DNA of 64,000 bases from Oscillospiraceae bacterium (GTDB lineage Bacteria; Bacillota; Clostridia; Oscillospirales; SIG627), in contig SVTV01000015.1 in assembly GCA_015063605.1 (NCBI GenBank), positions 1 to 64,000 of the forward strand. The letters run 5' to 3'. The position numbers and the translations under genes were made by a program. The notes beneath the pieces were generated by a model that saw only the letters and a list, made by a program, of their open reading frames with translations, had not been told where the DNA came from and made no database searches. Positions 46,653 through 56,531 of the stretch are shown here, in pieces (within the stretch, counting starts at the first letter, position 1; the number at the start of each line of letters is the position of its first letter).

Positions 46653-47270
46653 TCATTGATGTTCATCGAAAGCCAAAACGGATATCTTAACCGTTTTGGT
46701 TTTCTCTTCTTTTAAGTTCACTCCCCATACGATACGCGTATCCGGGTGACAGATCGATGAAACGGTAGATGAGATCGTATCCACCTCCATGAATGTGACA
46801 TCATTTGATGCCTCGATCAAAAGTATCACGGAATCTGCATTGATACTGCTTCGGGCAATCATTTGTGCGGCAACTGCACAGCAGTCATCACCTGTAGCAA
46901 AGGCTTTATAGATCTTTACTACTCCTCCGTTTGCATTGCTTAAATGCACATCGGAAAAGTCAATATTAACGAATCCTTCACAATTAAGCATTGACGCAAT
47001 AGCCTCGTAAATATCGGCAAGATCATTTGGTTCGCAGGATATGACAGTTACTACACCTTCGGATCCTATATGAAGCTTACTGTTATTCACATCGCAAAGT
47101 ATCGGTATACAGCTTTCCTGAGCTTTCGTTGGATTAAGCTCCGACTCTTTCTGTTCATCCGAAAGCCCTTCATCGATATCATCATAATAAAGATCATCAT
47201 CCAAGCCTTCGGTGGTTTCTATCATTTTTCTGATCTTATCCATAAGACCTGTCTTTTTTTCGTCGTTCAT
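46653..47270 (-). CDS. Stand-alone FtsZ C-terminal-domain protein
   Basis: 205 residues. From ~90 to the end it follows the C-terminal domain of FtsZ: GFVNIDFSDVH (100-109) is the T7 synergy loop with both Asp residues kept (D104, D107); AFATGDDCCAVAAQMIARSS corresponds to the GEDRAxxAAExAISSPLL segment; and SVILLIEASNDVTFMEVDTI, RIVWGVNLKEEKTKTVKISV match the remaining strands. No GTP-binding Rossmann domain (no GGGTGTG) precedes it; instead ~55 acidic residues and a short region. It may cap or regulate FtsZ filaments. It overlaps the upstream PHP gene by ATGA, so they are coupled. Confidence 0.78.
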   Translation of the reverse strand: MNDEKKTGLMDKIRKMIETTEGLDDDLYYDDIDEGLSDEQKESELNPTKAQESCIPILCDVNNSKLHIGSEGVVTVISCEPNDLADIYEAIASMLNCEGFVNIDFSDVHLSNANGGVVKIYKAFATGDDCCAVAAQMIARSSINADSVILLIEASNDVTFMEVDTISSTVSSICHPDTRIVWGVNLKEEKTKTVKISVLAFDEHQ

Positions 47271-48049
47271 ATTATGAATTTATCCTCTTCTTTAAGATCG
47301 AGAAGCGTAATTATATTCTCGAAATTTTCCTTTGCCCTGTCAAAACCTGCCGGGCTGTGGGCGTCGCTACCGAAATAGAACTTACATCCCTCTTCCTTGG
47401 CAATTTTATACGGAAGAAGCTCAATCTCGGCTTCTGCCTCGGAAAGCCTGAGTGAATTGAAATTCAATTCTATGCCTATCCCTTTATCCGCCGCCTTACA
47501 GAAAAGGCGGTGATATTCATTTTCGGGGATACATTTCAAAACATCAAGATAATGCTCACGATAGATCAAGGGACAAGTAAGGTGAGCAACTCCTACCTTA
47601 TGGAAAGGCAGATCCATATCAAGCACCGCATCAAAGCGGTCGCTCCAAAGCTTCGCTCTTTCCTCTGCATTTTCGTCTCCCTTGACCGTGAATCCTCCCA
47701 TATGCATATGAGTGGTGGGAATAATAATAAAGTCCACCTTTTCCATCACTTCACGTGATATGCCCAAGGTAAGATCACGGGAAAGATCGGTCTCGCATCC
47801 AAATAAGAAGCGTATGCCGTCCTTTTTCGGCAGAGGAAGTGAAGCGGAAATGTGCTCAAAGGTCTGAGGCGAGTACCATTTCGAAGCGCCTTCGACACGG
47901 CTGTCCCACATATGGTCGGTGAGACAAACAGTTTTTAATCCGTTGTTTTCGGCATATTTTAAAATATTCTCCGGTGTCTGCTCTTCGCATCTCGAACAGC
48001 TTGAAAGAAATGAGTGTATGTGAAGATCGTTGTCGGCTATGTAACGCAT
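47267..48049 (-). CDS. PHP-domain phosphoesterase (histidinol-phosphatase-like)
   Basis: 260 residues. DNDLHIHSFLSSC holds the HxH metal pair, CLTDHMWD the next His, CETDLSRD a metal Glu, PTTHMHMGGF and FGSDAHSPAGFD the last ligands, so the trinuclear site looks complete. Such proteins hydrolyse small phosphomonoesters; a histidine-biosynthetic role is not supported by neighbours. Its stop overlaps the FtsZ-domain gene. Confidence 0.87.
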   Translation of the reverse strand: MRYIADNDLHIHSFLSSCSRCEEQTPENILKYAENNGLKTVCLTDHMWDSRVEGASKWYSPQTFEHISASLPLPKKDGIRFLFGCETDLSRDLTLGISREVMEKVDFIIIPTTHMHMGGFTVKGDENAEERAKLWSDRFDAVLDMDLPFHKVGVAHLTCPLIYREHYLDVLKCIPENEYHRLFCKAADKGIGIELNFNSLRLSEAEAEIELLPYKIAKEEGCKFYFGSDAHSPAGFDRAKENFENIITLLDLKEEDKFII

Positions 48050-48089: not shown

Positions 48090-48704
48090 TTATTTATTCT
48101 GAAACCATACATTAATGTATGAAACTATCGGATCTATAAGATCTTTAATCTCCTTGCCGGTAGTGTTGATACAGAGGTTGAAAGCTTCGCTTTCTCCCCA
48201 TCTTATATCCGTGAACTGCGAGCGGTAAGCCGATCTTTCACGGTCTATCTTCTTTATCATTTTAAGCATTTCGCCCTCGGATAGATTTTCACCTTCCTTG
48301 GAATGTGCCATGCATCTCTGTACTCTTGCATCCATATCGGCATAAACGTATATTCTGAAGGGGTTCATATCCTTGAGGATAACATCCGCACCTCTGCCGA
48401 CGATCATGCAGTCCTCCTTTTCCGCAAGCTTCTTCAATATATCATTTTGCGCCGCAGCGACCTTCATGGGTTGTTCCATAACGGGATTCCATGTAAAATG
48501 TCTGCCGATAGTAGCGGGATAAAAAGCCTGTATAGCCTTTTCGGATATTCTTGCAACGTAATCCTTATCAAGGCCCTGCTCCTCGGCTATCATATCTATG
48601 ATCTGATGATCGTAGCAAGGTATACCCAAAGCTTCGGAAAGTCTCTTTCCGAGCTCACGTCCGCCGCTGCCGAATTGACGGCTCAATGTAATTATCTTTT
48701 TCAT
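48090..48704 (-). CDS. Cytidylate-kinase-like family protein
   Basis: 204 residues. TLSRQFGSGGRELGKRLSEAL is the family's P-loop start; IVGRGADVILKDMNPFRIYVYAD and RVQRCMAHSKEGENLS fit the lid/NMP region. Related to but distinct from true cytidylate kinase. Substrate not known. Good GAAAGGAATAAG upstream of the ATG. Lies between the WbsX-like and PHP genes on the same strand. Confidence 0.85.
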   Translation of the reverse strand: MKKIITLSRQFGSGGRELGKRLSEALGIPCYDHQIIDMIAEEQGLDKDYVARISEKAIQAFYPATIGRHFTWNPVMEQPMKVAAAQNDILKKLAEKEDCMIVGRGADVILKDMNPFRIYVYADMDARVQRCMAHSKEGENLSEGEMLKMIKKIDRERSAYRSQFTDIRWGESEAFNLCINTTGKEIKDLIDPIVSYINVWFQNK

Positions 48705-48740: not shown

Positions 48741-49859
48741 TCATTTTCCCTTAAATACTCTTTTTACCGCTTCCAGATAACCGTATCCGTATTTCGTGTC
48801 GGGCTGAAGGTAGCTTGTTTCGGTCCATTCATTCCAGCTGTTCAAGGTTACAAGTCTGTGAAGCTCAGGGTGCTGATCGAGATAGTCTGATGCAAGCCTC
48901 AAACCATTTTCGAAATTCTCGGGAGTGTTGTTTTTGCAAACATGATCTATGAAGGATCTGAATCTTGGATTATTGTCCCATCCAACGGAAACATGGGGGT
49001 AATACGGTATATTATAGTTTTCATTAATAAGCTTATACTGAGCCTTCACATCCTCAAGGACTTCAAGATAGTCCCTGTTCATCGAAGTAAAGTGGACAAA
49101 TTGATAATGTGTCATACTGTCAAAGCAAAGTGCATTGAATTCATCTCTTGAAAGACCTATACCCTTATCAACTCCGCTGAGGTTATTTCCGTTGCTGTTC
49201 CAAGCGGCAACCTGAAGATGAAGTCCCGGGAAGCCTGCCTTTACTACCTCATTTCTAAAATAATCAAGAGCACGCTTTGTTTCTTCGATACCGCCCAAGC
49301 CCTCCGTCAGATTGACAAGCTCATATATCATAAATACGGGACAGCCGTTTATTTTATAATAGCAAGGATGAGAAAAGTACTTCTCAATTACCCTTTTAAC
49401 GATAATTTCAAACTGCTTTCTGTCCTGTGCACCCTTCCAGATAACAACATCGCCGCAAGTGTCGGAAAGCTCCTTATTCCAGAGATGATTTGCATCGTGA
49501 TTCGCCCACATAAGATAAAATTTCATCTTATGATTGTTCTGTGCCTTCAAAAAGCCGTTATCAAGGCAATGCTCAAGAAAAGGTCTTGTGTCATACCAAT
49601 ACCAATCATATATGAAGACATTTATTCCGTGATCTGTTGCCGCATCTATCTGCATCTGCATTACATAAGGATCAGCTTCATTGACAAATCCCCACAAGGG
49701 CTTGGCAGGTTCGGGATATATTCCGTAGGGGGATATCTTGGGTACACTGTTTTTCACAGACTGCCATTCTCCCATTCCCTCTTTCCAGAACATCCTCGAA
49801 CGTTTTTCGTCTCCTGTATAAGCGGGCCATACGTATGCCGCTACATCGGTTTTCAGCAT
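48741..49859 (-). CDS. WbsX-like (GH99-related) protein
   Basis: 372 residues. YVWPAYTGDEKRSRMFWKEG, MQIDAATDHGINVFIYDWYW, GCPVFMIYELVNL and LNSWNEWTETSYLQPD are signatures of the WbsX/GH99-like family, often annotated glycosyltransferase WbsX in O-antigen clusters and related to endo-mannosidases. The final NEWTE holds probable catalytic acidic residues. No signal peptide. First gene of the minus-strand series down to the FtsZ-domain gene, although linkage by function is not evident. Confidence 0.85.
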   Translation of the reverse strand: MLKTDVAAYVWPAYTGDEKRSRMFWKEGMGEWQSVKNSVPKISPYGIYPEPAKPLWGFVNEADPYVMQMQIDAATDHGINVFIYDWYWYDTRPFLEHCLDNGFLKAQNNHKMKFYLMWANHDANHLWNKELSDTCGDVVIWKGAQDRKQFEIIVKRVIEKYFSHPCYYKINGCPVFMIYELVNLTEGLGGIEETKRALDYFRNEVVKAGFPGLHLQVAAWNSNGNNLSGVDKGIGLSRDEFNALCFDSMTHYQFVHFTSMNRDYLEVLEDVKAQYKLINENYNIPYYPHVSVGWDNNPRFRSFIDHVCKNNTPENFENGLRLASDYLDQHPELHRLVTLNSWNEWTETSYLQPDTKYGYGYLEAVKRVFKGK

Positions 49860-50044
49860 TTTAACATTTCACCTTCTTATTCTCTCGCATGCTTTATATA
49901 ATAATACCATATTTTTAACGATTTGACAATAGTGGATTTTGTCGAAGAGGCAAAAACATTGTTTTTTTGTATTATTTCTGCCTGTTTGTAAATACTAAAT
50001 GTAAATCACGGCACGGTTCGAAAGCATTTTTTATAGGAGGATAT

Positions 50045-53991: not shown

Positions 53992-54813
53992 TTATTTATT
54001 CACCTTTCTTATAAATCTTTCATATGAAGTTCCCGCAAGGATAGACTTTTTATCCTCATCGGGTATATTTGCGGCAAGTATCTTACCAACGCCTGCAAAA
54101 AGTGTACCGTCTGTTCCGAAAAGCACTCTGTCAGCACCAAGTGTTTTTACTGTTTCCTCCACAACGGGATAATCAACAACACTTCCCGAAAGGTCGGTGT
54201 AAATATTTTTGACATCGGCAATGCCCTTAAGCTGCCACTGCCAATCTCCGCCGCCCGCGATATGCGCCATAATAATATTGGCTTCGGGGTATCTTCTTCC
54301 CATATCCGCAAAATGTTCTCCGCCCGAAAGACGGGGCTGACGCTCGGTAAAGCGCATAAGCTTACCCGCGTGAACGAGTATCGGTATATCCATATCGATA
54401 CAAGCTTCCACAAGGCAATTCATATTCTCATCATTGATAAAATACTGATGATAGAGCTTAACGCCGACAAAACCCATGTCAACACAGCGTTTTACTTCCT
54501 CGACGGCTTTTTCTTTATGACCGCCGTTGACAAAGCACATACCCATTATCATATCCGGGTATCTTTGCATCGCTTTATAGACCGTATCATTTGCCTGAGC
54601 ACATCGTTCGATGGTCACGTGCTCATCAAGAATGGGGACTGAGACAAGCACCTTATCCTGGAAGGTCACCTTGCAACCGTTATAAAGTCTGTCGCAATGA
54701 GCTTCGTCCAGTTCTCCCGGAGAAGCTTCTCTTACATGTTCATGCCAATTAACAACAAAATTATCGGAAAACAGTTTAAGCTTGTCCTCATAATATGTTT
54801 TTATATTTTTCAC
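53992..54813 (-). CDS. Amidohydrolase family protein (paralogue A)
   Basis: 273 residues. NWHEHVRE has the HxH pair at 24 and 26; ILVHAGKLMR, IIMAHIAGGGDWQWQ and LFGTDGTLFAG give the remaining His and Asp ligands, so a metal-dependent hydrolase or decarboxylase is expected. GVKLYHQYFIND is the usual carbamoyl/Lys-strand area. It is strongly similar to the next two genes. Substrate not known. Confidence 0.85.
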   Translation of the reverse strand: MKNIKTYYEDKLKLFSDNFVVNWHEHVREASPGELDEAHCDRLYNGCKVTFQDKVLVSVPILDEHVTIERCAQANDTVYKAMQRYPDMIMGMCFVNGGHKEKAVEEVKRCVDMGFVGVKLYHQYFINDENMNCLVEACIDMDIPILVHAGKLMRFTERQPRLSGGEHFADMGRRYPEANIIMAHIAGGGDWQWQLKGIADVKNIYTDLSGSVVDYPVVEETVKTLGADRVLFGTDGTLFAGVGKILAANIPDEDKKSILAGTSYERFIRKVNK

Positions 54814-54849
54814 GAAATGTTACCTAATTAAGAAAGAGTTTACGAAGAA

Positions 54850-55671
54850 TTACTTTTTAGCCTTCTGAATGAAGCGGTCATAAGCGCCGCCGGCAAGTAT
54901 CTTCTTCTTATCTTCGAGTGAGATGTTACCCTCAAGCATCTTGCCGATACCTGCAAAGAGTGTGCCGTCTGTTCCGAAGAGTATTCTGTCCGCACCGAGG
55001 ATCCTTACTGTCTCTTCGATAACAGGAGCATCTATAACGCTTCCGGAAAAATCGGTGTAAATGTTCTTCACATCGGCAATGCCCTTAAGCTGCCACTGCC
55101 AATCTCCGCCGCCCGTGATATGAGCCATGATAATATTTGCTTCGGGATATCTTCTTCCGATATCGGCAAAATGTTCGCCTCCGGAAAGTCTGGGCTGAGA
55201 ATTGGGATGACGTGTAAGTCTGCCTGCATGGACAAGTATCGGTATATCAAGATCTATGCATGCTTCAATGAGGGGGAACATTGTCTCATCGTTAATAAAG
55301 TACTGATGATAGAGCTTAATACCAACAAATCCCATATCAACACAACGCTTTACTTCTTCTATAGCTTCTTCCTTGTTTCCGCCGTTAACGAAGCACATGC
55401 CCAAGAACATATCGGGATGTCTCTTAATAGCTTCAACTACAACATTGTTTACCTGACGGCATCTTTCCGAAGTAGCGTCACCTGCGGTGATGGGATCGGA
55501 AATAAGCACCTTATCCATATATGTAGCGCAGGAGCCTTCATAAAGTCTTTCGCAAAGAACCTCGTTAAGAACTCCGGGAGCGCTTTCCCATACATGCTCA
55601 TGCCAGTTTACAACATAATTGTCCGAAAAGAGCTTCATCTCATTTTCGTAATAAGCTTTTATGTTATTCAT
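54850..55671 (-). CDS. Amidohydrolase family protein (paralogue B)
   Basis: 273 residues, same motifs as its neighbours: HxH at 24/26 (NWHEHVWE), ILVHAGRLTRH, MAHITGGGDWQWQ, FGTDGTLFAG. It differs from paralogue C mainly between 60-105 and 150-170. All metal ligands present. Repeated copies with close sequence suggest recent duplication and divergent substrates or a heteromeric complex. Confidence 0.86.
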   Translation of the reverse strand: MNNIKAYYENEMKLFSDNYVVNWHEHVWESAPGVLNEVLCERLYEGSCATYMDKVLISDPITAGDATSERCRQVNNVVVEAIKRHPDMFLGMCFVNGGNKEEAIEEVKRCVDMGFVGIKLYHQYFINDETMFPLIEACIDLDIPILVHAGRLTRHPNSQPRLSGGEHFADIGRRYPEANIIMAHITGGGDWQWQLKGIADVKNIYTDFSGSVIDAPVIEETVRILGADRILFGTDGTLFAGIGKMLEGNISLEDKKKILAGGAYDRFIQKAKK

Positions 55672-55718
55672 AATAAGCCTCCGTTTGTTTTGTTTTTTAT
55701 AGAAAGTATTATTACTTT

Positions 55719-56531
55719 TTACTTTTTAAGAAAGCGGTCGTATATACCGCCCGACAGAATAGTTTTTTTATCCTCTTCGGAAATATTTGCAGCAAGCATC
55801 TTACCGATACCCGCGAACAATGTTCCGTCAGTTCCGAAAAGAATTCTGTCCGCACCAAGCATCTTGACGGCGTTTTCTATCATAGGTGCATCAACAACGC
55901 TGCCGCTCATGTCAGTGAATATGTTCTTGACATCGGCTATAGCCTTTATCTGCCATTGCCAATCTCCGCCGCCACCAATGTGAGCCATGATTATATTTGC
56001 CTCGGGATATCTTCTGCCCATATCCGCAAAATGAGCGCCGTCGGAACAGAAGGGTTGACTGTTCGGGAATCTTACAGCTCTGCCGGCGTGCACAAGGATA
56101 GGCACATCAAGCTTTATGCATTCCTCGACAAGATGATCGAGAATGTGATCATTTATAAAATACTGATGATAAAGCTTGACACCGACAAACCCCATATCGA
56201 TACATCTTTTCACCTCTTCGACAGCTTCTTCTTTATATCCGCCGTTTACAAAGCACATGCCGATGAACTTGTCGGGATGTCTCTTTATACCCTCGACAAC
56301 TACGTTATTGACCTGACGGAATCTTTCAGGAGTTGCTTCACCGCTCGTTATGGGATCGGAAATAAGCACCTTGTCCATGTAGGTATCGCAAGCACCCTCG
56401 TAAAGTCTTTCGCAAAGGACCTCATTTAATACACCCGGTGCACTTTCCCAAACGTGCTCATGCCAGTTTACGACGTAATTATCGGAAAACAGCTTTATTG
56501 CATTATCATAAAAATTCTTTATATCCTTCAT
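55719..56531 (-). CDS. Amidohydrolase family protein (paralogue C)
   Basis: 270 residues. NWHEHVWE (H24, H26), ILVHAGRAVRF, MAHIGGGGDWQWQ and FGTDGTLFAG complete the metal site. First of three paralogues in transcription order and 36 bases after the phosphoglycerate mutase gene. The family includes decarboxylases and lactonases; none can be assigned. Confidence 0.86.
   Translation of the reverse strand: MKDIKNFYDNAIKLFSDNYVVNWHEHVWESAPGVLNEVLCERLYEGACDTYMDKVLISDPITSGEATPERFRQVNNVVVEGIKRHPDKFIGMCFVNGGYKEEAVEEVKRCIDMGFVGVKLYHQYFINDHILDHLVEECIKLDVPILVHAGRAVRFPNSQPFCSDGAHFADMGRRYPEANIIMAHIGGGGDWQWQIKAIADVKNIFTDMSGSVVDAPMIENAVKMLGADRILFGTDGTLFAGIGKMLAANISEEDKKTILSGGIYDRFLKK

Follow-up and report, generated by a model that had tools for sequence, protein, structure and literature searches.

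What is a gene that encodes only the C-terminal half of FtsZ doing beside a PHP-domain gene and other metabolic neighbours, and where did it come from? The question is raised by a reading frame of 205 amino acids in an Oscillospiraceae genome (assembly GCA_015063605.1), which lies in a stretch of 64,000 nucleotides of contig SVTV01000015.1 that was analysed as a whole and is referred to here as the window. In FtsZ, the T7 loop triggers GTP breakdown in the neighbouring FtsZ. The gene, hereafter the orphan, and its parts are as follows.

46653..47270 (-), stand-alone gene for the FtsZ C-terminal domain, 205 aa, from Pfam, TIGR, PDB and local profile matches
47267..47270 (-), ATGA stop/start overlap of the orphan and the PHP gene, from the sequence
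47211..47264 (-), residues 3-20, predicted amphipathic N-terminal helix (GLMDKIRKMIET), a helix in both AlphaFold2 models
47109..47210 (-), residues 21-54, acidic, low-confidence linker, from the sequence and low pLDDT
46980..47108 (-), residues 55-97, connector between the linker and T7, from profile scores and the AlphaFold2 model
46947..46979 (-), residues 98-108, FtsZ T7 (synergy) loop EGFVNIDFSDV with N102, D104 and D107, from FtsZ profile and alignment
46665..46925 (-), residues 116-202, FtsZ C-terminal (GTPase-activating) domain, S7 to S10, from Pfam and AlphaFold2

Sequence comparison confirmed that homology of the orphan to FtsZ starts at the T7 loop, runs through the whole C-terminal domain and is limited to this part, as an earlier, sequence-only reading of the locus had proposed. 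Pfam FtsZ_C matched residues 133-200 (7.8e-9, above the gathering cut-off), FtsZ chains of the PDB were matched at 1e-8, and a local HMM of FtsZ from related Clostridia scored 67.9 bits. The TIGR00065 model matched residues 89-199 (1.1e-8) with 34.8 bits, far under its full-length ftsZ cut-off of 295.2, as expected of half a protein. With the local profile, residues 98-205 scored 60.6 bits by themselves and residues 60-98, the span expected for H6/H7, -1.8 bits, which is the level of shuffled sequences; the recognisable FtsZ part therefore starts at the T7 loop (approximately residues 98-205). The motif NIDFSD (N102-I-D104-F-S-D107) lies in register with NxDFxD of FtsZ, in agreement with the earlier reading, and F105 is likewise kept. 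N102 and D104 correspond to N208 and D210 of Staphylococcus aureus FtsZ, of which the former coordinates K+ and the latter is catalytic for hydrolysis (PMC8936486). The GTP-binding half is absent, as had been claimed: no GTP-binding domain with GGGTGxG was found in the orphan frame or nearby, and the only match to PF00091 (the GTPase domain) in the genome is in the full-length ftsZ, a single copy on another contig sharing 31% identity with the orphan. The frame opens with ATG and has the ATGA coupling to the PHP gene that was noted before; from stop to stop it spans only 208 aa, so no longer in-frame N-terminus is hidden upstream.

The AlphaFold2 model was computed from an alignment of FtsZ rows, an input that favours and partly imposes the FtsZ fold, and under this condition pLDDT was about 86-95 across most of residues 116-202, with matches to FtsZ structures at E 8.8e-10 (Foldseek) and Z 14.7 (VIA-align; rmsd 2.5 A over 127 residues). 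Confidence was lower around T7 (mean pLDDT 54 for residues 101-110, under 50 for residues 105-114). A helix at residues 83-95, with pLDDT about 70, was placed at the site of FtsZ H7; its sequence similarity is not significant. A single-sequence model was set aside (mean pLDDT 48, structural matches with Z <5).

Which parts have been kept? Measured relative to conservation within FtsZ (BLOSUM ratio), the best kept elements are T7 (0.84), S10 (0.78) and S9 (0.67), H10 is moderately kept (0.37), and in S7 (0.05) and the contact region H8 (-0.04) essentially all similarity is gone. The longitudinal contacts on the C-terminal half of FtsZ are made by H10, S9, H8 and T7 (PMC8936486). Of the positions with a conservation of 95% or more among FtsZ sequences, the orphan retains five of seven within T7 and 11 of 36 outside it, a difference short of significance (p=0.08); a window permutation test gave p=0.56, with residues 175-183 as the top window. 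Special protection of the T7 loop is suggestive only.

Compared with the host ftsZ, the orphan shows identities of 0.45, 0.55 and 0.28 at codon positions 1, 2 and 3, which means that synonymous sites are saturated and the protein is constrained; GC by codon position is normal, equalling that of the neighbouring genes. The protein looks as if it has been kept by long-term purifying selection. With third positions saturated and first and second positions constrained, a recently truncated or freshly broken ftsZ was rejected. The earlier claim that the gene is not a fragment of a broken ftsZ stands in so far as codon positions contradict mere truncation; it is weakened by the presence of the gene in this genome only, among the matches listed. 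The same restriction, and the loss of 25 of the 36 otherwise invariant FtsZ positions outside T7, would suit an old, formerly useful ftsZ duplicate that is now decaying and has an open frame by luck. Such a relic is, however, hard to square with the intact frame, the new N-terminal region joined on, the translational coupling and the codon-position pattern of long-term selection (which a recent loss of function would escape), and we consider it quite improbable. The orphan is probably a functional, highly diverged paralogue derived from ftsZ.

Protein searches went through overlapping sets of genomes: 98 relatives, all 22 in the family, 394 from the order, 391 from the class and 26 that carry the closest FtsZ; the host genus consists of one genome. 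The sequence-only reading had pointed to related Clostridia as a place to look for the same gene, and among the matches listed from these sets, some 800 genomes in all, there is no second stand-alone copy. An orthologue should outrank full-length ftsZ in such a list. Scans of genome contigs and viral contigs also found no close relative of the orphan, and where relatives have a PHP orthologue, neither an orphan nor a degenerate copy lies beside it. Known as a single copy from one draft assembly, the orphan does not amount to an established family. Searches of open-licence papers brought up no description of FtsZ proteins made up of the C-terminal domain only, in line with the earlier reading.

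An origin from a phage or plasmid was considered and rejected, as phages, plasmids and IMG/VR gave only ftsZ-like matches. Those in phages and plasmids were annotated ftsZ genes or unannotated stretches of unmeasured gene length; of 16 IMG/VR viral-contig matches that the FtsZ alignment had brought up and that were then checked, 13 were full-length ftsZ, and on contigs L182, L192 and L195 the frames reach the edge of the fetched stretch. On contigs L181, L183-L191 and L193, the FtsZ frame (about 310-317 aa) stops just past the C-terminal domain; these short FtsZ proteins have neither linker nor C-terminal peptide, and their genes could belong to phages or to host DNA. Separately, two tandem ftsZ-like genes approximately 1.1-1.3 kb apart were seen in several families of the same order (G028:C31, G094:C11, G128:C18, G320:C13, G385:C28). 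On the FtsZ tree the orphan branch measures 2.15 and the second longest 0.47, and with this long branch and supports of 0.3-0.8 the tree does not place the orphan. The rare residues in common with the host FtsZ (F160, N185 and L186) weigh no more than those in common with other FtsZs.

The region in front of the FtsZ part includes a predicted helix (residues 3-20) that is a possible membrane anchor, its hydrophobic moment being 0.68 compared with 0.53 for the N-terminus of the host SepF, and an acidic linker (residues 21-54) that is probably disordered, to judge by the model. Helix and linker resemble the SepF N-termini of the family, and one might think of a hybrid anchor in which the N-terminal half (membrane helix, acidic linker and first beta-alpha-beta) came from SepF and was joined to the FtsZ C-terminal domain. 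Residues 1-110 do score 11.4 bits against the SepF profile, above all 2000 shuffles, but it is the acidic N-terminus that contributes most of this, while the segments 60-98 and 50-112 are at shuffle level, and against the SepF N-terminal profile the orphan N-terminus reaches 2.1 bits, rank 4 among approximately 880 N-termini of other, non-SepF frames. A Pfam scan found no SepF core domain (PF04472) in the orphan, and the host SepF is a single copy elsewhere in the genome. The profile, shuffle and background tests support the architecture only; a SepF fusion was rejected, and we hold a hybrid of this kind to be very improbable indeed. Across the family, the SepF domain was detected in 11 of 22 genomes (8 of 11 of good quality), which may reflect real loss or missing assembly.

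The genes on the upstream side of the orphan, and the site in front of them, are the following.

47267..48049 (-), PHP-domain (phosphoesterase-like) gene immediately upstream of the orphan, Pfam PHP 5.7e-8
48090..48704 (-), cytidylate kinase-like gene (Cytidylate_kin2), family match
48741..49859 (-), WbsX-like / GH99-like gene, family match
49901..49929 (-), promoter-like site (TTGTCA-17-TATTAT, extended TG), seen only as a match to the consensus, such sites being at chance level in number in the region

The Cytidylate_kin2 gene is probably in the same operon as the orphan, and the WbsX-like gene is the probable first gene of that operon. A promoter of the orphan's own (TTGACA-17-GAGAAT at 47343-47315) was rejected as a chance-level match. 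Elsewhere in the window, at 53992-56531 (-), there are three tandem paralogous genes of approximately 270 aa, amidohydrolase-like by eye. The neighbours of the orphan are metabolic, with no division genes nearby, and an operon of WbsX-like, Cytidylate_kin2, PHP and orphan genes would be in keeping with a repurposed domain that has a role apart from FtsZ filaments, for example as a binding partner or regulator of the products of the PHP, kinase or WbsX-like genes. The very long branch on the FtsZ tree and the loss of H8 and S7 also speak for this, whereas the catalytic T7 residues N102, D104 and D107, unneeded for a role of the fold only, have been kept. We regard repurposing as tenable, if somewhat unlikely.

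The reading that we tentatively prefer, with a probability of roughly one in three (0.35), is that the orphan is an FtsZ-derived paralogue which docks on the nucleotide face of FtsZ and caps or anchors minus ends. An isolated C-terminal domain shows the face by which a normal subunit contacts the nucleotide face of its neighbour, hence the expected binding to free FtsZ or to the minus end. The orphan domain would dock in the manner of the FtsZ C-terminal half on the exposed nucleotide face of the host FtsZ, either on a free monomer or at the minus end of a filament, and would possibly be tethered to the membrane by its N-terminal helix. As the orphan has no nucleotide face, nothing could be added beyond it, and minus ends would be capped or anchored; with N102, D104 and D107 intact, the orphan might also complete the active site at that end. 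What we infer here is binding to FtsZ, a preference for one end, tethering to the membrane and GTPase activation. The profile and fold matches, the codon-position pattern, the intact N102 and D104, the well-kept T7, S9 and S10 and the N-terminal helix speak for this reading; the loss of H8 and S7, the low model confidence at T7, the T7 excess short of significance, the metabolic neighbours and the weak SepF score of the N-terminus speak against it. The full version, in which a membrane-tethered, GTPase-less FtsZ half both caps or anchors the minus end and completes the terminal active site, seems doubtful. The sequence-only reading had envisaged that the protein could cap or dock on a filament end and trigger hydrolysis there, or be a division regulator; by published reasoning, a protein bound to the nucleotide face should promote stability or nucleation of filaments, not their disassembly, unless it also alters the subunit (PMC11938149), and capping with hydrolysis is therefore possible but its outcome not obvious.

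The well-kept S9, T7 and S10 could also serve a decoy, which would show the FtsZ face of H10, S8, S9 and T7, a common target of MinC, SulA and MciZ (PMC11938149), titrate MinC-, MciZ- or SulA-like or phage-encoded inhibitors, and so shield the Z ring. H10, the main inhibitor-binding helix, is however kept only moderately and no inhibitor gene is adjacent, which makes a decoy unlikely in our view.

If the capping or anchoring reading is true, the orphan would be a natural protein of the C-terminal face and, as such, a probe of the nucleotide-exposing end of FtsZ; it would allow a direct test of how minus-end blocking affects treadmilling, and would show a non-polymerising accessory protein arising from a polymerising GTPase. 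In the literature surveyed, it is the C-terminal, plus-end face of FtsZ that the negative regulators described target.

Among known systems, what the orphan has in common with FtsZ (PF00091 with PF12327, TIGR00065) is the NxDFxD of T7 and, in the C-terminal domain, the S7-S10 fold; it differs in having no GTP-binding domain, recognisable H7, C-terminal linker or conserved C-terminal peptide, and in its new N-terminal helix and acidic linker. The predicted amphipathic helix at the N-terminus of the orphan, with the acidic linker behind it, recalls the layout of SepF, but the orphan is devoid of the SepF core domain and its N-terminal similarity is not clearly above background. Members of the FtsZl1 family are also partial proteins of the FtsZ superfamily in which one of the two halves is kept; FtsZl1, however, keeps the GTP-binding half and its C-terminal domain is without similarity (PMC2875224), the reverse of the arrangement in the orphan. 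Finally, MciZ, SulA and MinC resemble the orphan in that action is proposed at an FtsZ polymerisation face. For these proteins it is the C-terminal (plus-end) face of FtsZ (PMC11938149), whereas the orphan is itself similar to this face and its expected target would be the opposite, nucleotide (minus-end) one.
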